64,000 nt of DNA, taken from contig NZ_CP054150.1 in assembly GCF_021310995.1 (NCBI RefSeq), forward strand, positions 2,542,001 through 2,606,000, given 5' to 3'. Both the position numbers and the translations under genes were made by a program. The DNA is from Agrobacterium vaccinii. Lineage in GTDB: Bacteria > Pseudomonadota > Alphaproteobacteria > Rhizobiales > Rhizobiaceae. Shown here one piece after another: positions 13,462-36,423 of the stretch (the stretch's first letter is position 1; every line of letters begins with the position of its first letter). The notes under the pieces were generated by a model, which worked only from the letters and a program-made list of their open reading frames with translations, searched no databases and had not been told where the DNA came from.

Positions 13462-13588
13462 GTTTGGGTGATGGGCGGTACAGCGATGGTGGGGGGATGT
13501 CGGCATACCCTCTCTCGTCACCCTCGGGCTCGTCCCGAGGGTCTAATCACGCTTCTGCGGAAGCGACGTAGCAGATCCTCGGGACAGG

Positions 13589-14839
13589 TGTACGTCCCTG
13601 ATACATAGTTGACAGATGTTCGGAGACATCCCTGACAGTTTGCCATCTGGCACAGGAGGTCGGGATGGCTTGGCGGGAGTTGTCTGTTTTGGATCAGCGA
13701 CGAGAATTCGTGATGCTTGCGTCTTTGGATGGGGCCAATGTTTCGGCCTTGTGCAGGCGTTTCGGTATCAGTCGGCAGACGGGATATGTCTGGCTGCGGC
13801 GGGTGCAGGCGGGAGAGGCCGTGCAGGATCGCTCTCGTCGTCCGCATTCAAGCCCTCGCCGAACGCCCGACGATGTGGAGCGTCGTGTTCTGGATATCCG
13901 TGACGAGCATCCCGCCTGGGGTGCCCGCAAGATTGCACGGCGGCTGCAGGATCTCGCAATGGAGCCTCTCTCGGCTTCCACCATTCATGCCGTTTTGACG
14001 CGTCATGACAGAATAGGCCAGCAGACGAAGGAGCGGATGGCAAATGGCCGCTTCGAGCGCGAGGCACCCAATCTGCTGTGGCAGATGGATTTCAAGGGGC
14101 GCATCCGGATGGCCTGTGGCAACTGGTGCTATCCCCTGACCATCATCGATGATCATTCCCGCTTCGCCATCGCAATCGAAGCCTGCCTGGACGAGCGACT
14201 GGGAACCGTGCGCAGCAGGCTGGAGACGATCCTGCGCCGTTACGGTCTGCCAATGGCTATCTACTGCGACAATGGCAACCCATGGGACACGGGCGTGCCC
14301 AACCAGTGGACGCGATTGTGGGTTTGGCTGTTGAAGCTTGGTATCGAACTGATCCATTCACGGCCCTATCATCCGCAGGGGCGTGGCAAGAACGAGCGGT
14401 TTCATCGCAGTCTCAAGGCCGAGGTCATCGACTTCGCCACTTTTTCGGATCAGGCACACGCGCAAAAAGCTTTCGACCGCTGGCGCGACATCTACAACCA
14501 CCACCGTCCACATGAGGCAATCGGCATGGCAGTACAAGCCAGCCGCTATAGACCGTCACCGCGTCCTTTTCCAAGCCAGCTTCCAGAGCCAGTCTACGAC
14601 AGCACCGAGACAATCCGATGCGTCAGTTCCACAAAGGGATATGTCAGTTTCAAGGGCAAAGCCTGGCGTGTTCCCAATGCCTTCAGGAGCGAACGCCTCG
14701 CCATTCGCCTCCTGAACCGCAATGGCCTGTATGGCGTCTTCTTCGGCGCCACACAGGTCGCAAAAATCAACCTCGAAAACCCCTGACAAATGTCAGGGAT
14801 GTCTCCCAACATCTGTCAGGGATGTGTCCAGGCTTTACA
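13589..14839 (+). mobile_element. Complete IS481-family insertion sequence, 1251 bp
   Basis: The element begins TGTACGTCCC and ends GCTTTACA. Its outer 49 bases form imperfect inverted repeats that are identical over GACAGATGTT and GGAGACATCCCTGACA. A 5-base direct duplication ACAGG flanks it at 13584-13588 and 14840-14844. A single intact transposase gene fills it. Matching termini, an undamaged frame and a perfect target duplication suggest a fairly recent insertion. Confidence 0.88.
13665..14786 (+). CDS. IS481-family transposase
   Basis: This is a 373-residue DDE transposase. An N-terminal helix-turn-helix region (CRRFGISRQTGYVWLRR) is followed by an HTH_29/32-like linker and the rve integrase core. 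The catalytic residues appear at D142 (WQMDFKG), D202 (YCDNGNPW) and E244 (GKNERFHRSLKAE). The frame is uninterrupted, so the enzyme is probably active. ATG 13665 is preceded by CAGGAGGTCGGG. Its stop lies inside the right inverted repeat region. Confidence 0.92.
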   Translation: MAWRELSVLDQRREFVMLASLDGANVSALCRRFGISRQTGYVWLRRVQAGEAVQDRSRRPHSSPRRTPDDVERRVLDIRDEHPAWGARKIARRLQDLAMEPLSASTIHAVLTRHDRIGQQTKERMANGRFEREAPNLLWQMDFKGRIRMACGNWCYPLTIIDDHSRFAIAIEACLDERLGTVRSRLETILRRYGLPMAIYCDNGNPWDTGVPNQWTRLWVWLLKLGIELIHSRPYHPQGRGKNERFHRSLKAEVIDFATFSDQAHAQKAFDRWRDIYNHHRPHEAIGMAVQASRYRPSPRPFPSQLPEPVYDSTETIRCVSSTKGYVSFKGKAWRVPNAFRSERLAIRLLNRNGLYGVFFGATQVAKINLENP

Positions 14840-14861
14840 ACAGGCCCGAGGATGACGGCAA

Positions 14862-15806
14862 TTACCGACCGATATGCTTCTCACCGCGTTTCTTCGCCAG
14901 ATCGATCTGCTTCTGGCGGTTGCGAAAGCGGGTACGGTCTTCTTCGGTGCGATCGTCATAGCAGCTGGGGCAGGAGACGCCTTCTTCGAATTTTGGCGAG
15001 AGGCGAACTTCCGGCGTAATCGGGTTGCGGCAGGCGTGGCAGAGTTTGTGGTCGCCCTCGGCCAGACCGTGGACAACGGACACGCGCTCGTCGAACACGA
15101 AGCACGCACCTTCCCACAGGCTCTCTTCCTGCGGCACTTCTTCCAGATATTTTAAAATGCCACCCTTGAGGTGATAGACCTCATCGAAGCCCTGATCCTT
15201 CATGAAGGCCGTGGCCTTTTCGCAGCGAATGCCGCCGGTGCAGTACATGGCGATCTTGGGCTTGTTGTGCAGGCCGGGATTGTTCTTCACCCAGTCTGGA
15301 AACTCGCGGAAGGTCTTGGTCTGCGGATCGACCGCGCCCTGAAAGATGCCGATGGCGGTTTCGTAATCGTTGCGGGTGTCGATGAGGATCGTGTCGGGAT
15401 CGGAGATCAGCGCGTTCCAGTCCTTCGGGTCCACATAGGTGCCGACGATCTGGTTCGGATCGATATCCGGCACGCCCATCGTGACGATTTCCTGCTTCAG
15501 CTTCACCTTCATGCGCACGAAGGGCATCTTGGACGCACGGCTTTCCTTGTGCTCAAGATGAGTGAATTCTGGCTGGGCCCGCAGATAGGCAAGAACGGCT
15601 CCGACGCCCGCATCGGTCCCGGCGATGGTTCCGTTGATACCTTCGGTGGCCAGCAGCAGCGTGCCCTTGACGCCCTGTTCCTGACACAGCGTGAACAGCG
15701 GCTCGCGCACGCTTTCAAACCGCGGGAAGCGGGCGAAATGGTACAGCGCTGCCACGAGAAAATTACCGGTGGCGTCCGGGCGGGGTAGGATAGAGTTGTC
15801 GGTCAT
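14862..15806 (-). CDS. trhO: tRNA uridine(34) hydroxylase, rhodanese-domain protein
   Basis: This enzyme of about 314 residues belongs to the TrhO/YceA family. In relatives it hydroxylates uridine 34 of tRNA on the way to 5-carboxymethoxy- or methoxyuridine. Seen: an N-terminal acylphosphatase-like domain ([19 protein letters not shown]), a rhodanese domain with the active-site loop [10 protein letters not shown], and a C-terminal Cys-rich zinc-type segment (CHAC and CPSC). ATG 15806 is chosen at MTDNSIL; an upstream ATG would add an unrelated leader. Its 3' end lies only 18 bases from the IS481 target duplication. Confidence 0.88.
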
Positions 15807-15908
15807 GGCGGCTGAAATACAGCCAGACGGGCGTTTGCGCAATCTTATTTCGCGCTGGCAGCGTCCGTCGGTGAAGTTTTGATTTTCGTCAGGACGAGGC
15901 CACAGCCG

Positions 15909-16817
15909 CTACCGGGCCGCATGTTCCCACAAAGCCGCGATGATGCGGCTCTCGGCGCCAGAGGATTCGGCAAAGACATGATCGGCGAGATCAAGACAGT
16001 CCTGCCGCAACGCCTGCTGGCGGCGGGTGATGGTGTCCAGCAAGAGCGTAAGCGTGTCGCCACCGGCAAAGTGCTCGGGCTCCCGGTCTGCAAAGGCTGC
16101 GAGCACCGAAAGATCATGCTCGTGGCCAAGAAGGTCCACCAGCCGCTTGGCATCGACTTTCTTGGCGCGCAAAGCGGAGGGCCAGACGCGGCGCAGCAGC
16201 GCCAGATGCATCCAGTAGACCTGCCCGCTCTTGCGCAGATCGTGAAAGCTCTCGTCATGGGCGCGTTCGTGGCACTGCTGAAGCGCTGTCAGCGCCTTCT
16301 TGCGCTGCCTGCGCCATGTCTGCCGCACCAGCCGCACCGCCGTCTTCGCTCCCGTGGGAAGGGAGAGTTTCGCGAGCGCTTCCTTGCCTGCTTCGCATTC
16401 GGCAATGGCCGTGTCGATCCGGGCCTTAAAGTCGCCCTCGTCGCCGGTCAGGGCATCGCGCCTGCTGGCCAGTACTGTTTCAGCGGCGGTCAGGGCCTGC
16501 CGCTCATTGTCGGTGCTGGCAAAATTCTGGAGGTAGTGGATCGTTTCCACCAATGCCGCTGCATCCCGCGCCTGCGAGAGCGAGCGGGCGATATCGCGAA
16601 ACCGCAGGTTTTCAGTGCTGCGAAATTTCGGCTCTTCGCTTTGCACGAAGCGGTAGAGCGCCCGCAGGCGCTTGAATTTCTTGCGCGCACCGTGCACGGC
16701 GGCATGCGGGCCATCCGGCTGATTGGACAGGAGAGCGATGGCATCGTCGATCAGCTCCGTGCCGATGCGATGTACCTCGTTATCGAGCGGCTTTCTGGGG
16801 TCAATCCTGAATGACAT
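15909..16817 (-). CDS. CHAD-domain protein
   Basis: This 302-residue protein is all alpha-helical and rich in conserved basic and histidine residues (HAAVHGARKKFKRLRALYR, ESFHDLRKSGQVYWMH, LGHEHDLSVL), as in CHAD domains. Known members bind polyphosphate and often accompany or fuse with CYTH triphosphatases. Here the CYTH gene lies immediately upstream and overlaps by 17 bases, so the two products are coupled and probably work together on polyphosphate or triphosphate metabolism. The exact substrate is unknown. Confidence 0.85.
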   Translation of the reverse strand: MSFRIDPRKPLDNEVHRIGTELIDDAIALLSNQPDGPHAAVHGARKKFKRLRALYRFVQSEEPKFRSTENLRFRDIARSLSQARDAAALVETIHYLQNFASTDNERQALTAAETVLASRRDALTGDEGDFKARIDTAIAECEAGKEALAKLSLPTGAKTAVRLVRQTWRRQRKKALTALQQCHERAHDESFHDLRKSGQVYWMHLALLRRVWPSALRAKKVDAKRLVDLLGHEHDLSVLAAFADREPEHFAGGDTLTLLLDTITRRQQALRQDCLDLADHVFAESSGAESRIIAALWEHAAR

Positions 16818-17289
16818 AGCACAGCTCGCTGCTGAGGTCGTCTGTTGCCAGATGCTGGTTGGAATAGCGCGGGTCGCCGGTCACTTCGTCTCCCACCCAG
16901 GCCGGTAGTGCTGGCTGGTCCGTCTCGGCGGTCAGTTCCACCTCTGCCACCACCAGCCCCCGATAGAGGCCATCGAACACGTCGATTTCCCAGACGAAGC
17001 CCTCATGGGGAACGGTGTAGCGGATTTTCTCGATGATGGTGCCGGGTGCAGTGGCCAGCAGTTCCTCGCCATCGGCGACAGGAATGTCATATTCGTATTC
17101 ATCTCGGACAAGGCTGTTGGCGCCCACCTTGATGGTCAGGGTCGCCGCTTCGTTTTCCTTGATGCGCACCCGAACGGACCGGTCTTCCAGGGAAACGATG
17201 TAACCCTGGCGAAAGCGCGTACGCGTCGCGATTTCCTCGCGCCAGCTGTCATCCGCGACCAGAAACTTGCGTTCGATTTCTTTTGCCAT
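16801..17289 (-). CDS. CYTH-domain protein, likely inorganic triphosphatase
   Basis: This 162-residue protein forms a CYTH tunnel-fold domain. It opens with the signature EIERKFLV at residues 4-11 and has the expected alternating charged strands (SVRVRIKENEAATLTIKVG, EIDVFDGLYRGLVVAEVEL). Family enzymes hydrolyse inorganic triphosphate or related organic triphosphates in a metal-dependent way. The adjoining overlapping CHAD gene looks like a split version of the common CYTH-CHAD fusion. It is divergent from eda across a 151-base gap. Confidence 0.88.
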   Translation of the reverse strand: MAKEIERKFLVADDSWREEIATRTRFRQGYIVSLEDRSVRVRIKENEAATLTIKVGANSLVRDEYEYDIPVADGEELLATAPGTIIEKIRYTVPHEGFVWEIDVFDGLYRGLVVAEVELTAETDQPALPAWVGDEVTGDPRYSNQHLATDDLSSELCYVIQD

Positions 17290-17440
17290 TCAACAGCCTG
17301 CCCGATTTTCGGCAACCCTAGCCTATGACGTTGTCATGAAAAAGCAATCAAACTGAAATATTTCGTTTTGCCTCGACACATCAGGCTTTGCGCGGTAATT
17401 GAGTGCGCAATTCAATCGATTCAATAGAGGAGACACCATC

Positions 17441-18079
17441 ATGGCCCAGGATTCCGAAAAGCTGCTTTCCATCCTGAAACTCCAGCCGGTGGTGCCTGTC
17501 CTCATCGTCGATGACGTGGCCTCTGCCGTACCGCTCGCGCGTGCGCTTGTGGCGGGTGGTCTCAAAGCCATCGAAATCACCATGCGCACACCGGTTGCGC
17601 TGGACGCCATCCGCGCAGTGGCTGATGAAGTCGAAGGCGCGCATGTGGGTGCGGGCACCATTCTCAACGCCAAAGATTTCGAAGCCGCGGCCAAGGCAGG
17701 CTCGACTTTCATCGTCAGCCCCGGCATCAACAAGAGCGTGATGGAAGCGGCCAAGGGTTCCAAGGTTCCGCTGCTGCCCGGTGCTGCAACGGCCAGCGAA
17801 GTCATGCATCTGCGCGACAAGGGCTACAAGGTCCTGAAGTTCTTCCCCGCCGAACAGGCCGGTGGCGCGCCTTACCTCAAGGCGCTGTCCTCGCCGCTGG
17901 CAGGCACCATGTTCTGCCCCACGGGTAGTGTTTCGCTGAAGAATGCCAGGGATTACCTGTCGCTGCCGAACGTCGTTTGCGTTGGCGGTTCCTGGGTTGC
18001 GCCGAAGGAACTGATCGCAGCGGGTGACTGGGAGGGCATCACCAAGCTCGCAGCAGAAGCCGCAGCGCTTGCCGTCTGA
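17441..18079 (+). CDS. eda: 2-dehydro-3-deoxy-phosphogluconate (KDPG) aldolase
   Basis: This 212-residue class I aldolase cleaves KDPG to pyruvate and glyceraldehyde 3-phosphate, the last step of the Entner-Doudoroff pathway. Seen: the catalytic Glu region GGLKAIEITMRTP, the GAGTIL block, and the Schiff-base lysine in YKVLKFFPAEQAGG. The phosphate-binding FCPTGS block follows. The ATG at MAQDSEK was chosen because of GGAGACACC just upstream. No edd or zwf gene is linked. The upstream gap contains an AATTG/CAATT inverted repeat but no recognised operator. Confidence 0.93.
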   Translation: MAQDSEKLLSILKLQPVVPVLIVDDVASAVPLARALVAGGLKAIEITMRTPVALDAIRAVADEVEGAHVGAGTILNAKDFEAAAKAGSTFIVSPGINKSVMEAAKGSKVPLLPGAATASEVMHLRDKGYKVLKFFPAEQAGGAPYLKALSSPLAGTMFCPTGSVSLKNARDYLSLPNVVCVGGSWVAPKELIAAGDWEGITKLAAEAAALAV

Positions 18080-18140
18080 AGTTGAGGCGTTCACGACGGC
18101 GTGAACGTGCCTGCCATTTGTATTCGTGTCAGCACTTCCT

Positions 18141-18171
18141 ATCTCCTGTTTATATTCAACAAACAGGAGAT
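18141..18171 (+). promoter_or_regulatory. Perfect hairpin burying the ribosome binding site of the DUF533 gene
   Basis: ATCTCCTGTTT (18141-18151) is perfectly complementary to AAACAGGAGAT (18161-18171), with a nine-base loop. The AGGAG ribosome binding site (18165-18169) lies wholly within the 3' arm, four to six bases from ATG 18176. In RNA this would sequester the ribosome binding site; as DNA it could equally be an operator. Confidence 0.65.
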
Positions 18172-18175
18172 TTGA

Positions 18176-18877
18176 ATGTTCGACGCGAAAAAGCTTCTAG
18201 ACCAGTTTTTGGGCTCCAACGTACCGGGCCTGTCGGGAAGCGTGCGGGATCGGGCTGGACAGGCCACCCAGATCGCGAAGAACAATCCGATGAAGGCAGG
18301 CGCCATCGCCGCCGCCATCTTCGGCACCAAGACCGGTCGCAAGCTGGCGGGTAACGCGGCAGCGGTTGGCGGCATCGCCGCCATCGCCGGTCTCGGCTAT
18401 CTCGCCTACAAAAACTATCAGTCTGGCCAGAAGCCAGAGGCCGTGCAGCAACCGCAGCCGACCCAAGAGCTATTGCCACCACCGGTGGATTCCCCTTTTC
18501 ACCCGCAGTCTGAAACGCTCTCCAACACTTTCGCGCTGACGCTGGTGCAGGCCATGATCGCAGCTGCCAAAGCCGATGGCCATATCGACGAAGCCGAGCG
18601 CGCGCGTATCATGGAAAAGGTGCAGGTCTCCGAGCTTGATAGCGAAGCAGGTGCCTTCATCGAAAAGGAACTGGCCGATCCGCTGGACATCAACGCACTT
18701 GTCGCGGCCGCCAAGACCGAAGAGCAGAAGGTGGAACTCTACACCGCGTCCCGCCTGACCATCGAACCCGACAGCCGCGCCGAGCGCGGATATCTGGATT
18801 TGCTGGCCGGACGCCTTGGCCTGCCGGACGCGCTGGTGGAGCATATCGAGGCGACGGTTTCTGCTGCTAAGGTTTAA
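18176..18877 (+). CDS. DUF533 (YebE-like, TerB-type) protein
   Basis: This 233-residue protein has a glycine/alanine-rich N-terminal half with one hydrophobic stretch (about residues 55-80, AAAVGGIAAIAGLGYLAY), a Pro/Gln-rich linker (about 88-112), and a C-terminal TerB-like helical domain. That domain contains the acidic pattern AAAKADGHIDEAERARIMEKV, which in relatives resembles a metal-binding site. Relatives such as YebE are inner-membrane-associated proteins of poorly known role, linked in enterics to envelope stress. Its ribosome binding site is enclosed in a hairpin. Confidence 0.8.
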   Translation: MFDAKKLLDQFLGSNVPGLSGSVRDRAGQATQIAKNNPMKAGAIAAAIFGTKTGRKLAGNAAAVGGIAAIAGLGYLAYKNYQSGQKPEAVQQPQPTQELLPPPVDSPFHPQSETLSNTFALTLVQAMIAAAKADGHIDEAERARIMEKVQVSELDSEAGAFIEKELADPLDINALVAAAKTEEQKVELYTASRLTIEPDSRAERGYLDLLAGRLGLPDALVEHIEATVSAAKV

Positions 18878-19309
18878 TAGCGTTTTATGTGGGTGGGTGA
18901 GTGAGTAGGCTCCCCCTCCCCTTATAACCTCCCTTCACCGTCATTTGGGTGCGTACTGCCCAAGTGCGGTGGCGGATAGAGAGAAGCCCGGGGAGGCCGA
19001 GGCCCCCCGGCAGAGCCTAGTTTGGGCATCCGCCGTTCCATCGGCCCAGAACAGCCGCCAGTCCCGCTTGCGCAAGAAAAGCACGTAACGCGAGGACGGG
19101 ATAAGATGGATATTATCGTGGCATAGGTATCTCAAAGAACTGCCTCGGCGCTGCGGTTTCACCGTCTGACGCGCGCGTTTTCGTCGGGACGACCATGAGT
19201 TCCAACGATTAAGCACCACCATAACCACGAAACCGCCATTGAGGTACGTACGTCATTTTTTGATTTACGTACCTCAAAAACTCCTCTATGGACCATGGCC
19301 GGAGGATGC
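18878..19309. other. Intergenic region before the xylose locus
   Basis: This 432-base gap holds no convincing gene. A 95-codon minus-strand frame (19228-18941) lacks a ribosome binding site and recognisable similarity. The only clear element is the 11-base inverted repeat at 19240-19276 in front of the LacI gene. A CCCCGGG-type palindromic patch near 18990-19010 (GGGGAGGCCGAGGCCCCCC) may form a hairpin after the DUF533 gene. Confidence 0.5.
19240..19276. promoter_or_regulatory. Inverted repeat, candidate operator for the xyl LacI regulator
   Basis: TGAGGTACGTA (19240-19250) and its exact complement TACGTACCTCA (19266-19276) are separated by a 15-base AT-rich spacer. It lies 33 bases before the LacI start codon, so autoregulation and control of the downstream xylBA genes are plausible. 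Confidence 0.6.
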
Positions 19310-20329
19310 ATGAAGCCTACAGTTCACGATATCGCATCGAAAGCGGGTGTCAGCCTTGCGACCGTTGACCGGGTGATCAACCTGCGTCCGGGCGTGCATG
19401 CCTTGACGCGCGCCAAGGTGGAAACGGCGATTTCAGAGCTGGGTTATGTGCGCGATATGGCCGCTGCCAATCTGGCCAAGGGGCGCAGCTATGCGCTGGT
19501 CTTCATTCTACCCAACAATGACAATTCTTTCATGGCGGGCCTGCGTGCCGAGGTGCGGATGGCCGCTTCGCGGTCCTATCTGGAGCGTACCTCCATCCGC
19601 ATCATCGAGGTGCCACCGTTCGATGCGGCGGCGCTGGCGCAGGCACTGGATGTGGCACGCCAGGAGAAGCCCTCCGGCGTTGCCTTCGTCGCCATCGATG
19701 CCGAGGATGTGGTGGAGGCCACGGACCGGCTAGCGGAAAGCGGCATTGCGGCTGTCACGCTCGTCTCCGATCTCACCGGCTCGAAGCGAGACCATTTCGC
19801 CGGTGTCGATAACGTCGCCGCCGGGCGCACCGCAGCCAGCCTCATGGGCCGGTTTTCATCCGGCAGAACCGGCGACATCGCCGTTCTGGCGGGCTCGATG
19901 CTGGTCAAGGATCACCGCGAGCGTCTGGCCGGTTTTCAGGCCGTGATGCGCGACGAATTTCCTGACCTGACCCTGCTGCCGGTGCTGGAAGGCCGTGACG
20001 ATCCTGACGCTGTCGAGCAACTGACGGCGGATTGCCTGCGTCAAAACCCCGATCTGCTCGGCCTTTACAGTCTGGGGGCCGGTAATCGCGGCCTTATCAA
20101 AACCCTGCGTGCATCGCCCTCCTCGCCCTTCGCAATCGCCCATGAACTGACCGAGAACACGGCCAACGCCCTGCGCGAGGGCGTGCTCGATGCGGTGCTG
20201 AATCAGGATGCGGGCCACGAGGTGCGCAGCGCTATCAGGGTGCTGAAAGCCCGCGCCGATGGCCTTGCGGTCATCGAGGCGCAGGAGCGCATTCGTATCG
20301 ACATATTCTTGCGGGATAATCTCCCCTGA
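19310..20329 (+). CDS. LacI-family regulator of the xylose genes
   Basis: This 339-residue repressor has a LacI helix-turn-helix at the N terminus (TVHDIASKAGVSLATVDRVIN) and the hinge helix region ELGYVRDMAAANLAKG. A periplasmic-binding-protein-like sugar domain follows (DNVAAGRTAASLMGRF and onward). The ATG at MKPTVHD is preceded by GGAGG. It sits 24 bases upstream of xylB in the same direction, so it probably controls xylBA and itself through the inverted repeat at 19240. The sugar effector, most likely xylose, is inferred from context. Confidence 0.85.
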   Translation: MKPTVHDIASKAGVSLATVDRVINLRPGVHALTRAKVETAISELGYVRDMAAANLAKGRSYALVFILPNNDNSFMAGLRAEVRMAASRSYLERTSIRIIEVPPFDAAALAQALDVARQEKPSGVAFVAIDAEDVVEATDRLAESGIAAVTLVSDLTGSKRDHFAGVDNVAAGRTAASLMGRFSSGRTGDIAVLAGSMLVKDHRERLAGFQAVMRDEFPDLTLLPVLEGRDDPDAVEQLTADCLRQNPDLLGLYSLGAGNRGLIKTLRASPSSPFAIAHELTENTANALREGVLDAVLNQDAGHEVRSAIRVLKARADGLAVIEAQERIRIDIFLRDNLP

Positions 20330-20353
20330 CACTGACATAGCACTGGAGGAAAC

Positions 20354-21808: not shown

Positions 21809-21824
21809 TGGTCGCCGGGTGGGA

Positions 21825-21989: not shown

Positions 21990-22056
21990 CCACCCACCAA
22001 CACAAGCGAATAGAACACTTCACTATTTTACCACTATGCAAACCAGGGAGAGAACC

Positions 22057-23367: not shown

Positions 23368-23370
23368 TAG

Positions 23371-23430
23371 TCTTTCGCCGCGCAGACGCGCGACGACTAG
23401 ATTCCTGTGACACGCACAGGAATGAGGGGG
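23371..23430. repeat. Half-copy of repeat family 3 directly after xylA
   Basis: The 60 bases from TCTTTCGCCGCGCAGACGCG to CACAGGAATGAGGG match the right half of the full element at 59739-59856. It begins three bases after the xylA stop. The half ends in its own ATTCCTGTG/CACAGGAAT hairpin. Confidence 0.8.
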
Positions 23431-27579: not shown

Positions 27580-29772
27580 ATGCCGCATAAGCATGCCAAA
27601 ACACTGTCGATCGGCCGGAGCACCGCCGTGGCAGGTGTTTTGTCTGCGCTTGCCATCGTCGTGGTCATCGTCACCGTCCTCATTCTGTCTGCGCTCGGCG
27701 ATGTCGCCAAGAACACCAACGCGCTGGATGAACAGCGCTCGCAGGAAACGACATCCGGCGCCCTCTCCACTTTTCTCAACCAATTGACCGCGACGCTCAA
27801 CGATTACGCCGCTTGGGACGATGCCGCACGGTTCGCCTATGCGCCTGACGGCCTGGAATGGCTGATCAGCAATTACGGCGATATGACCGTCAACAGCGAA
27901 TTGTTCGACACCGCTGTCCTCATCGATATGGACGATCAGATTTTGATGTCCTATCGCCAGGGTGCACCAACGGACTGGTCGCTGTCGGATTATTTCGGCG
28001 ATGGTCTGGCAGGGCTGATCCAGAAGGTGCGCTCTGCTCCAATCGGGCAGGCCCCAGAAGTTTCGGGCTTTCTGCCCACGAAGGACGGCATTGCCGCAGT
28101 GGGTGTCGCTCTGGTGCGCAACAAATCCGGCCTGCTGGACGTGCCTGAAGCCAAAAGACGCTATCTGATTTTTGCGCGTCATTTGACGGCGCAGAAGGTC
28201 GAACAGCTTGCCCATACATACATCATCAACGGGCTGTCCTTGCAGCCTGCCGATGCACGCCCGGCTTATTTCGTCAGCATCGCTGATCCACAGGGCAACG
28301 TGCTGGGCAATCTGACGTGGCGATCGCAAATGCCGGGTGACATCAGCATGCGCGAGGTAAGCCCACGCATCATGGCGGCGATTGCCATCACCATGCTGTT
28401 TTTTCTGGCCCTGATCGCAATCGGCTTCACTGCGCTGAAAAAGCTGAAAAGCGATGAGGCGAGCGCTCGCCGCGAATTGTTGCGCGACAGGCTGAGCGGG
28501 CTTTACAACCGCCCCGGCCTTTTTTGGGGTCTGAAGCGACTGCTGCTGCGCTCCAAAGAAGACAATTCCTACGTCAAGCTGATCTATCTCGATCTGGATG
28601 GCTTCAAGGAAATCAACGATTCCTTCGGGCATGGCGCGGGTGACCTGTTGATCAAGGGTGTGTCTGCAGCTTTGCAGGTGCTGGTGGCCGAACAGGCCTT
28701 GCTGGCACGCCTCGGCGGCGACGAATTCGCCATTGCGGTGCAGGGCTCCGATGCCCGCAATCAGGGACGCCAGCTTTGCGACGACTTGCTGTCGCTGTTT
28801 TCCGAACCCTTCATGATCGGCGACCGCGTCGCCTCCATCGGTTGCAGTATTGGTACCGCAGTGTCGAAGGGTGGCGATATCGATGGCGAAGAGCTTTTGC
28901 GCCGCGCCGATATGGCGATGTACGAGGCCAAGGAAAACGGGCGTGGCCGCTATATGGCCTACGAGCCTCATATGGATACGCGCCGGGAAGAGAAAAACCA
29001 GCTTGAGGCCGATCTGAAATATGCCATTGAGCACGACGAGATCAAGGTCGTGTTCCAGCCTGTGGTCAACACGCTGAGCCGCCGCATTACCGGCGTGGAA
29101 GCGCTGGCGCGCTGGAACCGCGCAGGCTACGGCCCTGTTTCGCCCGATATTTTCATCGCTGCGGCTGAAAACAGCGGCCTCATCGACCAACTCGGCCTTT
29201 CCGTTCTGCGCAAGGCCTGCAAGGCGGCGATGGACTGGCCGCAGGTCAAGCTTGCGGTCAACATCTCTCCCGTTCAGTTCAGAAACCCGCTATTTTCCAG
29301 CCAGGTCCAGGCCATTCTAAGCGAACACGGCATCGAACCCTCTAGGGTGATGCTGGAGATGACCGAAGGTTACTTCATTCACCACCCGGAGCGGGCGGCA
29401 GCGGCCATCGAAAAGCTCAAGCAGACCGGGGTCAGCATCGCGCTTGACGATTTCGGGTCCGGCTTTGCCAGCATCGGCTATCTGCGGCAATTCGGTTTCA
29501 ACCGCATGAAGATCGACAAATCGCTGGTCGAGGCGCTGGATGAAGGCGGTCGCTCGCTGGAAATGCTGACGGCGACGGTGGCGCTTGCAAAGTCTCTGGG
29601 CATTCCGGTCACGGCGGAAGGCATCGAAACCGAAGATCAGGCTGCCATTCTGCAACTGTGTGGCTGCGATGAATTGCAGGGTTATCTTTTCTCGAAGCCT
29701 GTCCAGCCGGAGCAGATTTTCACGCTGCTTTCCGAACAGGATGCGCCCGTGCGGCAGTTGAAGGTTTCGTAA
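27580..29772 (+). CDS. Membrane-bound CHASE4-GGDEF-EAL cyclic-di-GMP enzyme
   Basis: This 730-residue signalling protein has a first transmembrane helix at about residues 15-40 and a periplasmic CHASE4 sensor (note LNDYAAWDDAARF). A second helix (about 265-287) precedes a cytoplasmic GGDEF domain (intact GGDEF at 379-383) and an EAL domain (EAL at 507-509). EAL catalytic residues look complete: MLEMTEGYF, LDDFGSGFASI, MKIDKSLVE, TAEGIET and QGYLFSKPV. No RxxD inhibitory site is seen at the usual place before GGDEF. Either or both activities are possible, so net synthesis or breakdown of c-di-GMP cannot be predicted. The ATG 27580 ribosome binding site is weak. It stands alone. Confidence 0.9.
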   Translation: MPHKHAKTLSIGRSTAVAGVLSALAIVVVIVTVLILSALGDVAKNTNALDEQRSQETTSGALSTFLNQLTATLNDYAAWDDAARFAYAPDGLEWLISNYGDMTVNSELFDTAVLIDMDDQILMSYRQGAPTDWSLSDYFGDGLAGLIQKVRSAPIGQAPEVSGFLPTKDGIAAVGVALVRNKSGLLDVPEAKRRYLIFARHLTAQKVEQLAHTYIINGLSLQPADARPAYFVSIADPQGNVLGNLTWRSQMPGDISMREVSPRIMAAIAITMLFFLALIAIGFTALKKLKSDEASARRELLRDRLSGLYNRPGLFWGLKRLLLRSKEDNSYVKLIYLDLDGFKEINDSFGHGAGDLLIKGVSAALQVLVAEQALLARLGGDEFAIAVQGSDARNQGRQLCDDLLSLFSEPFMIGDRVASIGCSIGTAVSKGGDIDGEELLRRADMAMYEAKENGRGRYMAYEPHMDTRREEKNQLEADLKYAIEHDEIKVVFQPVVNTLSRRITGVEALARWNRAGYGPVSPDIFIAAAENSGLIDQLGLSVLRKACKAAMDWPQVKLAVNISPVQFRNPLFSSQVQAILSEHGIEPSRVMLEMTEGYFIHHPERAAAAIEKLKQTGVSIALDDFGSGFASIGYLRQFGFNRMKIDKSLVEALDEGGRSLEMLTATVALAKSLGIPVTAEGIETEDQAAILQLCGCDELQGYLFSKPVQPEQIFTLLSEQDAPVRQLKVS

Positions 29773-29883
29773 CCCTCAACGGTGTCTGCCATTCCCTCGA
29801 CTGTGTAAATTTGTTCGCGCCGAAAACAGCGTGCAGCGCGACCGCACGTTCATACCCAACATGTCTGGTTTTGAGGTTGAGGC

Positions 29884-30867
29884 TTAGTGAGAAGGTTTGG
29901 CGTCTTCCGCCGGGGCAGCGACAGCAGCAGGCGCATCGTGGCCTGCATCAGCTGCCTGCGCGTGGTCAGGCTCTGCGGCGACTGCAACGGTGGGGCCCTT
30001 GCCGAAAATCAACGACTTAATATAAGCGAAACTGAATATGCTAACGCTATCATTCTCCGGCGTAGACGTCAGCAGTTTCGGATCGTCTGGGCCGGCATGG
30101 CTATCCTGCGCGGAAGGCTCGCCATGGCCGCCTTCGCCGGACGCCGCGGGTGTCTCACCATGGCCAGCATCTGGTGGTGCTGCTTCGCCGTGGCCGCTGC
30201 TTTCACCGTGACCGGCGGCTGGTTTATCGTGTCCGCTTGGTGCCGCGCCATGACCACCTGCCGGTGCGCTTTCTGCGGCGGGATCGACGCAGGGCGTGAA
30301 ATCCGTGAGGCTTGCGGCCATATGCTGCGTGTCTTCCAGCGGAAGATCGATCCGCAGGCCATAAAAGACGCCGTCTGTGCTGGGCGCACCATCATAATAA
30401 TAGGCAGAATAGGTTTTGGCATCCGCTTCGGGCGGCAGTTTCGCGACATCGGGAATGAAGAGGACCTGCGCTGCGACTGCCCTGCCCCGCATATCCGAGC
30501 GCATGGTTGGGCCGTGTTCATCCAGAATGGAGACCTGCACCAGATCCGGTTTCAGTTCGTCATAGGTGGTCTTGGCGATGCGAAGTGCCGTCTTGACGCG
30601 CTCCGGCCCATCACCGCCCTGGGTGCGGATGAATTTACGAATCCAGACGGCACCGTTTTTCTTGATGTTGACGGTTTGCACGATCTTGCATTCGAGGCCG
30701 TTGGCGGAGGCCGTGGCCTGCCCGAACAGGCTTTCGCGACCGACCATGATGGCGGCAACGCCGGACGCTCCCCCGAGAAGGAGGACACCGCCACTGATCA
30801 ATACGAACTTGCGAGAAAACCGTATTCTCTTGAACACTGCTTTCACGTCGATCGTCCCGACATCCAC
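29884..30867 (-). CDS. Membrane-anchored protein with His/Gly-rich tail, unknown function
   Basis: I do not recognise this family. The product of about 327 residues has a basic N terminus (KRIRFSRKF) and one transmembrane helix (about residues 20-42). A periplasmic-type domain (about 50-190) resembles no catalytic fold I know. Its C-terminal half is low-complexity, with repeated G-H-G and other His-containing units (GGHGAAPSGHDKPAAGHG and similar, about 195-255), and it ends in a His-spotted Ala/Pro tail. Start is uncertain: GTG 30867 follows AACGGGG, while GTG 30846 and an upstream ATG-less extension are alternatives. It is divergent from the sitABCD metal importer, which suggests metal binding; that is inference. 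Confidence 0.6.
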   Translation of the reverse strand: MDVGTIDVKAVFKRIRFSRKFVLISGGVLLLGGASGVAAIMVGRESLFGQATASANGLECKIVQTVNIKKNGAVWIRKFIRTQGGDGPERVKTALRIAKTTYDELKPDLVQVSILDEHGPTMRSDMRGRAVAAQVLFIPDVAKLPPEADAKTYSAYYYDGAPSTDGVFYGLRIDLPLEDTQHMAASLTDFTPCVDPAAESAPAGGHGAAPSGHDKPAAGHGESSGHGEAAPPDAGHGETPAASGEGGHGEPSAQDSHAGPDDPKLLTSTPENDSVSIFSFAYIKSLIFGKGPTVAVAAEPDHAQAADAGHDAPAAVAAPAEDAKPSH

Positions 30868-31076
30868 TACCCCGTTAAAAGTCCGAAATTCGCAAACCGC
30901 CCAGGCAGCGAACTGCGAAACGATTTCGGCGCGGCGGCAGTGAGACTGCTTCCGTGCATGTATCAATTCTGACCTGTTCACATTGAAGAAGCTTTAACCG
31001 AGCCGATATTCCGCTCCGTCAACTGAACCATTTTTGGATTCCGCGAAAATAAGCGAGACGAACTCAAACCATCTTT

Positions 31077-31128
31077 ATTGCGAATGATTTGCAATATCAT
31101 TGACAAAATCGTTTCACGGCACCAGATT
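31077..31128 (+). promoter_or_regulatory. Mur/Fur-like box overlapping the sitA promoter
   Basis: ATTGC and GCAAT flank a 9-base spacer at 31077-31095. The overlapping AATGAT-7-ATCATT palindrome occupies 31083-31101. A good promoter follows immediately: TTGACA 31100-31105, a 17-base spacer and CAGATT 31123-31128. In rhizobia, Fur-family Mur represses sitABCD with Mn2+ through TTGCAA-type boxes, so repression here is expected. A further TGCGA-5-TCGCA palindrome lies at 31134-31148. Confidence 0.65.
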
Positions 31129-31167
31129 GAGATTGCGAATTAATCGCATTAGGAGTTCTATAGGCTC

Positions 31168-32058
31168 ATGACATCGTCCGCGCTTCGTCTCTTTCTCTGT
31201 GTAGCAACGCTTTTCCTGCCCTTTGCGGCGGGTGCAGCCGACAAGCCGAAGGTCGTCACCACCTTCACAATCATCGCCGACATGGCGCGCAATGTGGCGG
31301 GTGACGCAGCCGAGGTGGAGAGCATCACCAAGCCGGGTGCGGAGATTCACAACTACCAGCCGACGCCGCGCGACATTCTCAAAGCCCGCAATGCCAATCT
31401 CGTTCTATGGAACGGGCTCAATCTCGAGCTGTGGTTCCAGAAGTTTCTGGCCAACCTTGCCGATGTGCCGAATGTCACGGTGAGCGATGGCGTAACGCCG
31501 ATGTCGATCAGCGGTGGCGCCTATCAGGGCAAGCCCAACCCGCATGCCTGGATGTCGCCCGACAATGCGCTCATCTATGTCGAGAACATCCGCAAGGCCT
31601 TGACGCAGATCGACCCTGCCCATGCGGACGTCTATGCCGCCAATGCAAAAGCCTATTCCGACAAGATCAGCCGCGAGATCCAGCCGATGCGCGATGCCAT
31701 CGCCGCTCTGCCGGAGAACAAGCGCTGGCTGGTGACGAGCGAAGGCGCGTTCTCCTACCTCGCCCGTGATTTCGGGCTGAAGGAACTGTTCCTGTGGCCG
31801 GTCAATGCCGACAGCCAGGGCACACCGCAGCAGGTGCGCGGCGTGATCGATGCCATGCGCGAACATAATATTCAGGTCATTTTCAGCGAAAGCACGGTGT
31901 CTCCCGACCCGGCCAAACAGGTGGCCAAGGAAACCGGCGCTGCCTATGGCGGTGTCCTCTATGTGGATTCGCTGAGCGAAGCCGACGGCCCGGTGCCGAC
32001 CTATCTCGACCTGCTGCGGGTAACGACGGAAACTGTTGTGAAAGGTCTCTCCAAATGA
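31168..32058 (+). CDS. sitA: Mn/Fe ABC importer, periplasmic metal-binding protein
   Basis: This 296-residue cluster A-I (ZnuA/TroA/SitA) binding protein has a signal peptide (residues 1-23, ending AGA-AD). The four expected metal ligands are visible in order: His in [11 protein letters not shown], His in [11 protein letters not shown], Glu in [10 protein letters not shown] and Asp in LYVDSLSE. The His-His-Glu-Asp set is typical of Mn2+/Fe2+ binders, and there is no His-rich loop as in ZnuA. It is the first gene of a four-gene operon with ATGA-type overlaps. Confidence 0.85.
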
Positions 32059-32945
32059 TGATGGGAAAGCGCAAGGGCGCAGAAACCGGACTGGCCGTCA
32101 ATGACGTGACCGTGACCTACCGCAACGGCCACACGGCGCTGCGCAGCGCCAGCTTCTCCATTCCGCGCGGCACCATCACCGCCCTCGTCGGTGTCAATGG
32201 CGCGGGAAAGTCCACCATTTTCAAGGCCATCATGGGCTTCGTACCGCTAGCGGCAGGCTCCGTTTCCATCTTCGATGTGCCTGCCCGCGACGCGCTGAAA
32301 AAGAACCTCGTCGCCTATGTGCCGCAGGCCGAAGAGGTGGACTGGAGCTTTCCGGTTCTGGTGGAAGATGTGGTGATGATGGGCCGTTACGGCCACATGA
32401 ATTTCCTGCGTATTCCGTCCAAGCGCGACCACCAGATGGTCGATGAAGCCTTGGCCCGCGTCAACATGGTGGATTACCGCAAGCGCCAGATCGGCGAACT
32501 CTCCGGCGGGCAGAAGAAGCGAGTGTTTCTGGCGCGCGCACTGGCGCAGGAAGGCCAGGTCATTTTGCTGGACGAGCCCTTTACCGGCGTCGATGTCAAC
32601 ACCGAAGAACAGATCATAACGCTGTTGAAGGCCTTGCGCGACGAAGGCCGCATCATGCTGGTTTCCACCCACAATCTCGGCAGCGTGCCTGATTTTTGCG
32701 ACCGGGCGGTTTTCGTCAAGGGCACCGTTATCGCTTCGGGCAAGACCGAAGACACGTTTACGGAAGAGAACCTGCAAAAGGCGTTTGGGGGTAGTTTGCG
32801 CCACTTCATACTGGGTGGAGCCGACCTGCATAACGACGCCGACCCGCGCCACCTCAAGGTCATCACCGACGACGAGCGGCCTTTCGTGATCTACAGCAAG
32901 GATGGCACGGCAACGGCGACCCCGAAAGCGAAGTGCCATGATTGA
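32055..32945 (+). CDS. sitB: Mn/Fe ABC importer, ATP-binding subunit
   Basis: This 296-residue ABC ATPase carries Walker [10 protein letters not shown], signature LSGGQKKRV, Walker [13 protein letters not shown] and H-loop VSTHN. The C-terminal extension beyond about residue 245 is typical of SitB/MntB. Its ATG overlaps the sitA stop by four bases (ATGA), and it overlaps sitC by eight bases, so all are translationally coupled. Confidence 0.87.
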
Positions 32946-33798
32946 TACTCTGCTCGAACCTTTCACCTATTCCTATATGCTGAACGCCATATGGGTCAGT
33001 GCGCTGGTGGGTGGCGTCTGCGGCTTTCTGTCGTCCTATCTGATGCTGAAGGGATGGTCTCTCATCGGCGATGCGTTGTCCCACGCCATCGTGCCCGGCG
33101 TGGCGGGGGCCTATATGCTGGGCCTGCCCTTTTCGCTCGGTGCCTTCATCTCCGGCGGGCTGGCGGCGGGGTCGATGCTGTTTCTCAACCAGAAGACCCG
33201 GTTGAAGGAAGATGCCATCATTGGCCTGATCTTCACCTCCTTTTTCGGGCTCGGCCTGTTCATGGTGTCGCTGTCGCCGACATCCATCAACATCCAGACC
33301 ATCGTGCTCGGCAATATCCTGGCGATCACCCCGGAAGACACGCTTCAGCTGGCGCTGATAGGCGGTATCAGCCTTTTAGTGCTGGCGGTGAAGTGGCGCG
33401 ATTTCATGGTGGTGTTTTTCGATGAAAACCACGCCCGCACGGTTGGCCTCAACCCCGACCTGCTGAAAATCATCTTCTTCACCCTGCTGGCCGCCTCCAC
33501 CGTTGCCGCCTTGCAGACCGTTGGCGCATTTCTGGTGGTTGCCATGGTGGTGACGCCGGGTGCCACGGCCTATCTTCTGACCGACCGGTTCGAGCGGCTG
33601 ATCGGCATGAGCTTCGGCATCGGCGCTGGTACCAGCTTCGTCGGGGCCTATCTCAGCTACTTCCTCGATGGTGCCACCGGCGGCATCATCGTGGTGTTGC
33701 AGACGCTGATCTTCCTGACGGCCTTCGTCTTTGCGCCCAAGCACGGCTATCTCGCCTCCCGCGCCAAGGCCAAAGCAGCATTGGAAACCGCGCCATGA
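32938..33798 (+). CDS. sitC: Mn/Fe ABC importer, first permease subunit
   Basis: This 286-residue ABC-3 family permease has eight or so hydrophobic helices. The family blocks [29 protein letters not shown] and [19 protein letters not shown] are present. ATG 32938 at MIDTLLEP is chosen; an earlier in-frame ATG lies inside sitB. The presence of two permease genes distinguishes Sit/Mnt systems from ZnuABC, which has one. Confidence 0.86.
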
Positions 33799-34646
33799 GC
33801 GAAAACCTGCAACTGGCGATCCTGCCGTTTCAACTGCCTTTCATGCAATATGCCTTCGTCATCACACTGATGATTGCGGTGCCGATGGCGATGCTGTCCT
33901 GCATTCTGGTGCTGAAGGGCTGGTCGCTGATGGGCGATGCCGTCTCCCACGCTGTTCTGCCGGGCGTCGTCATCGCCTATATCGTCGGCATTCCCTTTTC
34001 CATCGGGGCCTTCATTGCGGGGATGATCTGCGCTTTGGGCACCGGCTTCCTCAAGGAAAACAGCCGGATCAAGGAAGATACGGTGCTCGGCATCGTCTTT
34101 TCCGGCATGTTCGGGCTGGGGCTCGTACTCTATGTGAAGGTGCAGAGCGATGTGCATCTGGACCATATTCTCTTCGGCGACATGCTGGGCGTTGCCGTCA
34201 GCGACATCATCGAGACAGGCCTGATTGCGCTGGCCGCCACGCTGTTTTTGGTGCTGCTGCGCAAGGACCTGCTGGTCCACGCCTTCGATGCACAACACGC
34301 CAAGGCCATCGGCCTGCCGGTGCGCCTGCTGCATTATGGCTTGCTGGCGGTGCTGTCTTTGACGGTCGTTGGCGCATTGCAAGCCATCGGCATCATTCTC
34401 TCCGTCGCCATGCTGGTGGCACCCGGTGCCATCGCCTTTCTGCTGACGCGGCAGTTCTCCAGCATGCTGATCGTCGCCGTCATCGTTGCCGTCAGCTCGT
34501 CGCTGGCCGGAATATGGGCCAGTTTCCTTATCGACAGCGCCCCCGCCCCGACCATCGTTCTGATCATGACCGGTGTCTTCATCCTCGCCTTCATTCGCAC
34601 CACCGTGAAAGCGCGTGCCACCAACCGCGTGGAAAAGGCAGCGTGA
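33795..34646 (+). CDS. sitD: Mn/Fe ABC importer, second permease subunit
   Basis: This 283-residue ABC-3 permease is homologous to the preceding SitC. Shared blocks include LSCILVLKGWSLMGDAVSHAVLPG and LSVAMLVAPGAIAFLLTRQF. It overlaps the sitC stop by four bases and ends the operon. No clear terminator follows directly. The short gap to the DUF1328 gene contains no recognised element. Confidence 0.86.
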   Translation: MSENLQLAILPFQLPFMQYAFVITLMIAVPMAMLSCILVLKGWSLMGDAVSHAVLPGVVIAYIVGIPFSIGAFIAGMICALGTGFLKENSRIKEDTVLGIVFSGMFGLGLVLYVKVQSDVHLDHILFGDMLGVAVSDIIETGLIALAATLFLVLLRKDLLVHAFDAQHAKAIGLPVRLLHYGLLAVLSLTVVGALQAIGIILSVAMLVAPGAIAFLLTRQFSSMLIVAVIVAVSSSLAGIWASFLIDSAPAPTIVLIMTGVFILAFIRTTVKARATNRVEKAA

Positions 34647-34774
34647 CAGACAATTGTCCGCAATTGAAAAGATTATTTCAGAATCTGCGGAACTACCTGC
34701 CGTAGATTCGCGTCATATCTACAGGTTGAAGCGTGGGCGCTCGACCGCATCAATTGACGCAAAGAGGTACGACC

Positions 34775-34948
34775 ATGTTGAAGTGGGCTCTTATATTCTT
34801 CGTTATCTCACTGATTGCCGGTGTTTTCGGCTTTACGGGAATCTCGGCGGCGACGGCGGGCATCGCCCGTATTCTGTTCTTCATCGCCGTGGTCGTGTTC
34901 CTGATCTTCCTGGTGCTTGCACTGATGGCCGGTCAGGCGATCCTCTGA
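34775..34948 (+). CDS. Small DUF1328/YtjA-type membrane protein
   Basis: This 57-residue protein consists almost entirely of two transmembrane segments with the family pattern [36 protein letters not shown]. Function is unknown; relatives are widespread in proteobacteria and often stress-induced. AGAGG precedes ATG 34775, and a strong terminator follows within 50 bases, so it is a small independent unit after sitD. Confidence 0.85.
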
Positions 34949-34967
34949 TAGAACGAATGTTAAGGAA

Positions 34968-34997
34968 AACGGCGGGTCTCAGGGCCCGCCGTTTTTT
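34968..34997 (+). terminator. Rho-independent terminator after DUF1328 gene
   Basis: AACGGCGGG (34968-34976) pairs with CCCGCCGTT (34985-34993), and a six-T run ends at 34997. Confidence 0.92.
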
Positions 34998-35040
34998 GTT
35001 GTGCTCTACCAAGGACTTCCGTCATGCTCGGGCTTGTCCC

Positions 35041-36323
35041 ACTGCTGTCCGGTTTATTAATCCTCCGTCCATTGGAGCATCAGCTGGTCATTGTGGCATC
35101 TGCTGCTGTTGGGTGGTTTGAGAAGACTGTCTGTTCTTTTTCGATGCATGAGGTTGGCCCGCACGAGGCGGGCGAAGATCCAGGGGCTTTTGATGGTCTT
35201 CTGGTCTGCCTGCGCCATGCGCAGAAGCAGGAAAGCGATGAGGGCCACGGTGATCTGAATGCGCACGGCGTTTTCTGAGACACCCAGGAAATGCTTGATC
35301 TTCAAGGTCTGCTTGACCCATTTGAAGAACAGTTCGATAGCCCAGCGGCGCTTGTAGAGATCGGCGATCTCTTGCGCAGTGGCATCGAGATCGTTCGACA
35401 GGATCCGCAGCACCTTGCCGGTATCCTTTTGCACCGTGATCTCGCGAACCGGGTCGCTGAACGGGTTCTTGCGGTTGCCGGCCTGACGGGCAGGCAGCAG
35501 ACCAATGCGATCCGACAGGATGCGACCACCGTTTGCATCCGCGTCCTCCAGCGGCTGCTCATGCAACACCGTCAAGGGTGTATGGGACTTGAAGCGGGTG
35601 ACGATGCGGCATCCGGCCTGATCCATCCTGGCCCACCACGAGAAATCATAATAGCCCAGATCAAAGACGTAGGTCGCGCCCGGTTCGATCGGCATGGCCT
35701 TGGCGGCGGTGATGTCATTGACATTGGCGGGTGTGACGGCGGCATAGATCGGTCGCTCTGCGCCCGCATCATAGACGATGTGGACCTTGGCTCCGCAAGC
35801 CTGATGGGAGAACCGCGCCCATTGCGATCCTGCACCGGAAAGGCGAAGGCTCGTGGCATCAATCAGATAGGTCGCCTCGCCGACGGACCGTCGCAACCCG
35901 CGCCCGGCTCGTGCGACCAGCTCGGCAAACAGACCGGTAAAGACCGCACTTGAGCGTTTGGCATTGGCATCAGCCAGTGTCGAACGTGAGGCCGGGCGTG
36001 CGCCGAGATGATAAAGGCGTGTCGAATGGCTTTCCAGACCACCTTCGATCTCGCGCAAGCTGACAGCACCGGCGAGTTGCCCATACAGCAGGGCGATCAA
36101 CTGGCTCTTGGTGGACAATCGCCGGGTATGCTTGTCGGTGCCATGCTCATCCACAAGCCGCTCGAAGGTCGACCAGGAAATGCGCTTCAAAAGATCATGA
36201 AAAACGCTATTGTGATGCCGCACGGTGTTGCCCCTCTTTCGTGTCCAAATCGTCGCCAAACGCTTGAATACGAATAGAATCAACACCGTGCGCCGTGTCT
36301 ACAAATTTAAACCGGACAGCAGT
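35041..36323 (-). mobile_element. Complete IS4-family insertion sequence, 1283 bp
   Basis: Terminal inverted repeats ACTGCTGTCCGGTTTA are perfect at both ends. An 11-base direct duplication GGGCTTGTCCC occurs at 35030-35040 and 36324-36334. One intact transposase gene on the minus strand fills the element. The perfect ends and duplication point to a recent and possibly active copy. Confidence 0.92.
35057..36223 (-). CDS. IS4-family transposase with DUF4372-type N terminus
   Basis: This DDE transposase of about 388 residues has an N-terminal DUF4372 region (FHDLLKRISWSTFERLVDEHG, LREIEGGLESH). The catalytic core shows YLIDATSLRLSG, TYVFDLGYYDFSWW and the C-terminal YKRRWAIELFFKWVKQ, which holds the catalytic Glu of the IS4 Y-R-E-K signature. 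GTG 36223 is preferred because GAGGGG precedes it; an upstream GTG (36286) would extend it by 21 residues. The frame is intact. Confidence 0.9.
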   Translation of the reverse strand: MRHHNSVFHDLLKRISWSTFERLVDEHGTDKHTRRLSTKSQLIALLYGQLAGAVSLREIEGGLESHSTRLYHLGARPASRSTLADANAKRSSAVFTGLFAELVARAGRGLRRSVGEATYLIDATSLRLSGAGSQWARFSHQACGAKVHIVYDAGAERPIYAAVTPANVNDITAAKAMPIEPGATYVFDLGYYDFSWWARMDQAGCRIVTRFKSHTPLTVLHEQPLEDADANGGRILSDRIGLLPARQAGNRKNPFSDPVREITVQKDTGKVLRILSNDLDATAQEIADLYKRRWAIELFFKWVKQTLKIKHFLGVSENAVRIQITVALIAFLLLRMAQADQKTIKSPWIFARLVRANLMHRKRTDSLLKPPNSSRCHNDQLMLQWTED

Positions 36324-36423
36324 GGGCTTGTCCCGAGCATCTGCCACGTTGCATTTTCGGAGACGTGATTAGATCCTCGGGACAAGCCCGAGGATAACGA
36401 AGAAGGGTGCGGCAACTGCCGCC

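Follow-up and report, generated by a model that had tools for sequence, protein, structure and literature searches.

Insertion sequences of the IS481 and IS4 families in the hairpin loops of RIME-like repeats in Agrobacterium vaccinii and its relatives

REP-targeting elements and the two split hairpins

Insertion into repetitive extragenic palindromes (REPs), which where present usually number more than 100 copies per genome (PMC2817692), has been reported for elements of the IS3, IS110, IS4, IS256 and IS5 families (PMC1525189). The closest described case is ISRm22, an IS4-family element (subgroup IS4Sa) of Sinorhizobium meliloti, all of whose copies (10 of 10) lie in rhizobial REPs with the insertion point on the axis of the palindrome (PMC1525189); its insertion specificity is also noted in PMC2266710, where the YREK signature of the IS4 transposase is named. 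Here we describe a stretch of 64,000 nucleotides from Agrobacterium vaccinii (assembly GCF_021310995.1, contig NZ_CP054150.1, positions 2,542,001 to 2,606,000; hereafter the window), in which an IS481-family and an IS4-family insertion sequence each interrupt a RIME-like REP hairpin at its loop, and we show that among the copies examined both lineages usually do so.

Several other elements also insert into REPs, namely ISPsy8, IS1397 and ISKpn1 (IS3 family) and IS621, ISPpu9, ISPpu10 and ISRm19 (IS110 family). ISPsy8, ISPpu9 and ISPpu10 use a fixed point of the repeat, which for ISPsy8 is the symmetry axis of the hairpin and which ISPpu9 and ISPpu10 share; unlike the window elements, they belong to other families and duplicate 3 bp (ISPsy8) or 2 bp (ISPpu9 and ISPpu10), and the sections consulted describe no dependence on loop length (PMC1525189). 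IS1272, of the IS1182 family, targets inverted repeats, and a duplication of the loop only has been sketched for it as 'pathway c' (PMC5678879); IS481 is unmentioned in the main text of that paper. CGTC-type REPs were reported in 2013 without a dedicated transposase (PMC3733652). The text of PMC1525189 does not contain IS481, its matches to 'ISRm20' being to ISRm2011 only, and the excerpts of PMC8496243 and PMC5894124 hold no data on ISRm20 targeting, the matches again being ISRm2011. Among the matches listed we found no report of IS481 elements targeting hairpin loops, most subscription papers and the ISfinder notes lying outside that coverage, and no report of ISRm20 targeting in the literature searched. 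The IS4 half of our observations is a close parallel of the published case of ISRm22 at REP axes (PMC1525189), and the loop habit of IS481 elements, which is mostly precise to the base, appears to be new as far as this literature reaches.

In the window, the IS481 element (13589..14839, plus strand, 1251 bp) stands between two copies of ACAGG (13584..13588 and 14840..14844), as the original prediction had placed them. The flanking stems ATCCTCGGG (13575..13583) and CCCGAGGAT (14845..14853) pair with each other, with 8 of the 8 innermost pairs formed, and joining the flanks gives ATCCTCGGG-ACAGG-CCCGAGGAT, in which the target-site duplication is the complete 5-nt loop. The transposase of 373 amino acids (13665..14786, plus strand; rve, rve_3, HTH_28 and HTH_32) scores 266.2 bits against NF033577 (cut-off 224), which assigns it to the IS481 family, and the element has the TG..CA ends of that family, in the form of imperfect terminal inverted repeats TGTACGTCCC..GGCTTTACA, together with the 5-bp direct repeat. 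It is the only full copy in its own genome. The other hairpin of the same repeat, ACCCTCGGG-CTCGT-CCCGAGGGT (13520..13542), is intact.

The IS4 element (35040..36324, minus strand, 1285 bp, ends CACTGCTGTCCGGTTTA..TAAACCGGACAGCAGTG), one of 8 copies in the genome, encodes a transposase of 409 amino acids (35057..36286, minus strand) with DUF4372 and DDE_Tnp_1 that scores 247.8 bits against NF033592 (cut-off 115) and so belongs to the IS4 family, which the inverted-repeat ends CACTGCTGTCCGGTTTA and the 9-bp direct repeat also fit. Direct repeats in this family measure about 9-12 bp. The two copies of the duplication GGCTTGTCC (35031..35039 and 36325..36333) comprise the loop CTTGT and 2 bp on each side; joined, the flanks read ATGCTCGGG-CTTGT-CCCGAGCAT, from the stems ATGCTCGGG (35024..35032) and CCCGAGCAT (36332..36340), and the duplication is centred on the loop. 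The second hairpin of this repeat, ATCCTCGGG-ACAAG-CCCGAGGAT (36373..36395), is again intact. Both elements, their duplications and their hairpins were hence found where the original prediction had put them, each splitting a RIME-like repeat in the loop; its length for the IS4 duplication did not hold, the proposed 11-bp GGGCTTGTCCC reaching one base too far at either end, since the terminal C and G of the element equal the target bases. In the relative L056, with CA..TG ends, the 9-bp duplication is unambiguous. ISRel1 is the closest named relative found for this element (75% amino-acid identity), with no target study seen. ISRm22, whose own sequence was not identified among the hits, has direct repeats of 6 bp as against 9 bp here, and some of its copies have mismatched repeats attributed to recombination between copies (PMC1525189, PMC2266710).

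The name RIME is one that we presume to apply to these repeats, and a scan of the window against Rfam gave no match at gathering scores. The two split repeats start with CGTCAC and CGTCAT, which fits a CGTC-tagged REP palindrome, and an unoccupied repeat (11732..11825), whose two hairpins lie at 11732-11754 and at about 11807-11825, presents the uninterrupted form of the target. The pattern CTCGGG-N5-CCCGAG occurs 4 times in the window, where dinucleotide shuffles predict 0.04 and 0 of 100 shuffles reach 4, and 46 times in the genome (4.87 Mb), where the reversed control pattern is absent (0 sites). Since target sites of the loop type make up only about 0.016% of the genome bases, two independent insertions in such loops by chance are very unlikely, and chance as the cause is ruled out by the shuffle count, by the 46 sites against none for the control and by the pairing statistics of the IS481 sites given below.

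Loop duplications among IS481 relatives

Relatives of the IS481 element were taken from 394 genomes of the family (20 with a match, the own genome and short matches included), from plasmid records and from a species genome collection, whose scan contributed the best 80 of at least 534 relatives. Together with 21 loci picked from the family genomes and plasmid records, these 80 make up the 101 loci examined, of which 64 were usable, with both ends located by weight matrix and 40-bp flanks, and 37 were set aside because an end was missing, the contig stopped or N occurred. Three of the 64 duplicated others; the rest include 42 non-duplicate sites at 50% identity or more, which an automatic rule divides into 31 with a direct duplication of 4-6 bp, 5 with inverted copies of the loop and 6 with neither. 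At least 7 of 8 Watson-Crick pairs directly enclose the duplication in 26 of the 31 direct sites, and mean pairing over all 31 is 7.23 of 8, compared with 1.95 at shifts of 6-35 bp. Two of the six sites with neither (L099 and L100) also show 7-8 pairs.

The 26 well-paired sites comprise 14 different 7-bp stems around loops of 5 nt (22 sites), 4 nt (3) and 6 nt (1), and in 25 of them, by reading of the listed loops, the duplication equals the loop with no further pairing inward, the exception being L061 (CCGAG). The length of the duplication tracks that of the loop, from 4 nt (L081, L084, L086) through 5 nt to 6 nt (L113, L131, L132); the 4-nt loops are GAAG and GCGA and the 6-nt loops CTTGCC, GCCAGA and TCTGGC, the latter class being found in Azotobacter vinelandii and a gammaproteobacterial metagenome-assembled genome, in stems of the TTTTTCTTG or TTCTCTTG type. 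When the right arms were re-dealt among the 31 sites, pairing was 4.45 of 8 (standard deviation 0.23; maximum of 2000 re-deals 5.26) against the real 7.23, indicating that shared sequence accounts for part of the signal and pairing for the rest. Stem position 6 is paired in 31 of 31 sites with a sequence conservation of only 0.41 bits; for positions 4 and 8 the values are 1.25 and 1.34 bits. The re-dealing test and the low conservation at the paired position 6 rule out that the whole stem is recognised as a fixed sequence.

In a tree of 62 IS481 transposases, which is a quick one, unrooted as to the direction of change and with some rows that are near-copies from one genome, a clade of 37 rows (SH-aLRT 100) contains 32 loop, 4 non-loop and 1 unclear case, and the other 25 rows contain 6, 13 and 6, respectively. 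What we see, then, is an IS481 clade including ISRm20-type elements, with named hosts in the Alphaproteobacteria, that mostly duplicates exactly the unpaired REP loop of 4-5 bp in many different stems, and a few gammaproteobacterial relatives that duplicate a 6-nt loop in the same manner. Seven loci at 43-50% identity (L021, L106, L115, L118-L120 and L121) lie in or beside palindromes of the CCCTCCCC/GGGGAGGG type, mostly a few bases off-centre.

At the place orthologous to the IS481 insertion of the window, a genome of the same genus (G295, the sole sister locus fetched that spanned the site) carries an intact repeat with the loop TCAAG. ISRm20, an IS481-family element of S. meliloti (annotation as ISRm20 family in CP090106) whose transposase is 58% identical to that of the window, targets loops exactly in the copies seen, its target stem being CCCTGTG as opposed to CCTCGGG in the window. 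Five records were fetched for one such site among 74 with a match, the reference being pSymB of strain HM006: four (strains 1021, GR4, CCMM B554 and MABNR56) have the empty allele GATCCCTGTG-ACGAG-CACAGGGAT, and in AK21, as in HM006, the same loop is occupied with ACGAG on both sides. The two insertions in pSymB (L047 in HM006, L256 in AK21) have opposite orientations, which reflects either repeated insertion or inversion in place. Empty alleles were also sought for L048 and L142, and none was obtained. Flanks without RIME character in empty-site strains, the outcome named as refuting the original prediction, were thus not encountered for the IS481 element; at the IS4 site, none of the five aligned sister loci has the same empty repeat, two (G247 and G295) having another REP and three (G017, G417 and G419) none, which indicates that the repeats themselves come and go. 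A sixth locus spanning that site (L213) is known by BLAST and lies outside the alignment. The different REP in G247 and G295 (L204 and L207, orthologous to window positions 34740-36640) has stems ATACCGGC and ATTCCGGC, respectively, the same as or similar to the stem hit by an IS481 relative in L043.

Insertion sites of the IS4 lineage

Seven of the eight full IS4 copies in the A. vaccinii genome split the loop of the CTCGGG-type hairpin, one of them (L011) in an imperfect stem with 6 of 8 pairs; two further ones of the seven, L007 and L010, each have a duplication whose copies differ by one base. The eighth copy, L006, has the duplication GCTGCAGGG with 3 of 8 pairs around it. By contig, 44 of the 46 CTCGGG-type hairpins are on C1 and 2 on C2, the contig of L006; this off-target copy sits where REP hairpins are rare, and the largest contig concentrates them.

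DNA matching the IS4 element is present in 27 of the 394 family genomes, the own one included. The survey covered 24 loci with both ends visible (8 own and 16 others) and gave 24 non-duplicate two-sided sites, L140 contributing two and L008 being a duplicate of L004; the count leaves aside one-ended loci, L171 (located where L152 is) and L166 (2 mismatches in its ends). In 15 of the 24 sites a 5-nt loop is enclosed by at least 7 of 8 pairs, and in all 15 GG precedes and CC follows the loop. Insertion by the IS4 lineage is hence symmetrical about this same loop, with 9 bp duplicated and, in most cases, a GG-N5-CC core. Two short non-autonomous derivatives, in L164 (G120; 1500-1804, 305 bp) and L140 (180-446, 267 bp), have the same ends as the IS4 element, and both lie inside REP hairpin loops.

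If a REP-targeting element is expected to have every copy at the same point of the REP, the IS4 element does so in 7 of 8 own copies and the IS481 element in its one own copy and in 26 of 31 direct sites across hosts. The mapping of copies that the original prediction had proposed, carried out here on samples, finds most of those examined in such loops, with 15 of 24 for the wider IS4 survey.

A second hairpin family with as much structure, ATTCCTGTG-N5-CACAGGAAT with near variants, occurs in the window at 23401-23423, 46644-46666, 46730-46752, 59745-59765 and 59829-59851. Its strict form, TCCTGTG-N5-CACAGGA, has 38 sites in the genome, and in S. meliloti IS481 relatives insert into stems of a similar type.

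Proposed recognition of the folded repeat

At the IS481 sites a loop is duplicated, the stem is free to vary and the duplication is as long as the loop; this suggests, but falls short of proving, that the folded repeat is what is recognised. The target read by the IS481 transposase may be the stem-loop of the REP, whose likeliest form would be an extruded hairpin, a cruciform or, during replication, a single-stranded hairpin. Each 3' end of the element would be joined at the 5' edge of the loop, on two strands, and gap repair would then duplicate the loop only, so that loop length would set the length of the duplication. For the IS4 transposase, a sequence motif read together with the palindrome is more likely, and this enzyme seems to need GG-N5-CC as well as the hairpin. 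The two families would converge on REP loops because these are abundant and alike from copy to copy, and the coincidence in the window is a visible sign of two targeting habits, each independent of the other, that coincide in one kind of repeat. We consider this whole, the observed loop habit together with stem-loop recognition by IS481, to be probably the best explanation. That a DDE transposase of the IS481 family reads folded DNA, and that loop length rather than a fixed stagger determines the duplication, we propose more tentatively, as something a little short of an even chance. The original idea that two transposases choose the same structure thus survives as an outcome, whereas a rule common to both is probably wrong, IS4 using mostly one core and IS481 many stems; hairpin extrusion as an attractant of transposition is no more than plausible. 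IS1272 targets inverted repeats without a common sequence, for which structure has been proposed as the target, and the pattern of the IS481 clade is that of its 'pathway c' (PMC5678879). The clade differs in that IS1272, with a transposase of another family, replaces the stem-loop and makes no duplication (PMC5678879), whereas IS481 keeps the stem and duplicates the loop; and if structure without sequence homology is taken as the mark of such targeting, the IS481 sites show 14 stems in 26 sites, yet also the shared loop and tag sequences discussed next.

Several observations weigh against the explanation proposed here. Five of the 31 direct IS481 sites fail the pairing test (L078, L079, L082, L096 and L106), although L079 and L082 are centred on REPs with a stem interrupted near the loop, and L106 reaches 8 of 8 pairs at a shift of at most 3 bp. 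Below 50% identity, 15 of 19 sites have direct duplications and only 3 of these 15 have at least 7 pairs, with 0-2 pairs at the copies in Cupriavidus, Acidovorax and Mesorhizobium AR02, which also means that the pairing test is not passed automatically. Each of the 22 five-nt loops follows NCRRG or its complement, and of the 33 hairpin targets at 50% identity or more, whether their loop copies are direct, inverted or unclear, 28 bear a GTCAY tag close to the end of the stem, so that loop or tag sequence may be what IS481 reads; most of these targets are REPs of the CGTC type. A sample of 464 kb from the genome (the window and 20 stretches of 20 kb) contains 46 hairpins with a five-nt loop, of which 20 have no NCRRG-type loop, and none of that kind is hit, a comparison across hosts that is only indicative. 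Among four Bradyrhizobium transposases that are 89-93% mutually identical, two gave 5 bp in 5-nt loops (L095 and L105), and L096, whose transposase is 89.5% identical to these, duplicated 4 bp where there is no hairpin, so the length of a duplication can change independently of a loop; the fourth, L091, has 4 bp as inverted GAAG/CTTC. This set cuts both ways, since it indicates a flexible stagger, but L096 lacks a hairpin and L091 resembles a product of recombination between two sites. For the IS4 lineage, pairing stays below 7 in 9 of the 24 sites: 6 pairs form in the RIME-like L011 and L152, and 1-5 in L006, L056, L141, L148 and L153. The other two, L055 and L144, whose transposases are 39% identical to that of the window (records at the same identity are annotated as ISRm16 family, those of L055 and L144 carrying no annotation there), lie near the centre of 2-nt-loop palindromes of the CCCCGC/GCGGGG type. 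L166, outside the count, has flanks without a hairpin.

The inverted loop copies, which the automatic rule detects in 5 of the 42 IS481 sites and visual inspection adds in L042, are not predicted by the model. The two copies are reverse complements in L046, L041, L066, L089 and L091 and nearly so in L042. Inversion between copies does not account for all of them, as it fits only L066 and L091, which have two outer REP halves; in L046, L041, L042 and L089 an outer half is combined with an inner one, which requires a local flip, for example by snap-back pairing of the element ends followed by repair, a route that is unproven.

These observations bear on three other explanations. IS481 could read the conserved REP loop (NCRRG), perhaps with the outer GTCAY tag, in duplex DNA, the stems varying simply with the REP families of each host. 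The uniform five-nt loops, the frequent tag and the conserved stem positions 4 and 8 agree with this, as does the hairpin-free duplication in L096, and covariation of base pairs belongs to the REPs and would be visible whatever feature of them is read; against it stand the 4-nt and 6-nt loops with matching duplications, which a fixed stagger is not expected to produce, and the five of 33 targets that lack the tag. We regard duplex reading as unlikely, though less so than the two explanations that follow. For the IS4 lineage, a plain GGG-N5-CCC rule, such as that known for the target of IS231A, would make the hairpin incidental. It would account for the GG and CC in every well-paired IS4 site, and yet this motif occurs 84 times in the 464-kb sample (15 of 84 RIME-type), or about 880 times genome-wide by extrapolation, against 46 RIME-type sites that nevertheless receive 7 of the 8 copies, so the motif alone fails to explain the targeting; L055 and L144, near the centres of another type of palindrome, also depart from it, and we consider such a rule improbable. 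Finally, both elements might insert widely, with only harmless insertions into intergenic repeats surviving, as the original prediction had offered under the name of a safe niche. Both split repeats do lie between long open reading frames of the window, and the concentration of IS4 copies in such repeats is compatible with survival of this kind. However, a safe niche predicts a spread over the repeat and cannot by itself account for insertion at one exact point; the 38 hairpins of the TCCTGTG-N5-CACAGGA family hold none of the eight IS4 copies, and in S. meliloti HM006 and AK21 the element occupies one and the same loop but faces opposite ways. A safe niche is very improbable as the explanation.

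If recognition of the folded repeat is correct, IS481 would be a natural case of the loop-only duplication otherwise seen as a sketched pathway (in the excerpts of PMC5678879), and CGTC-type REPs, said to have no dedicated transposase (PMC3733652), would be the home of a widespread clade of transposons. With the IS481 clade come transposons aimed at CGTC REPs and possibly an insertion tool for intergenic repeats, and the S. meliloti loop that is occupied in both orientations is a natural hot spot. The clade may also offer a direct genetic handle on the formation of hairpins at REPs in vivo, as well as bearing on whether a DDE transposase can read the shape of DNA.

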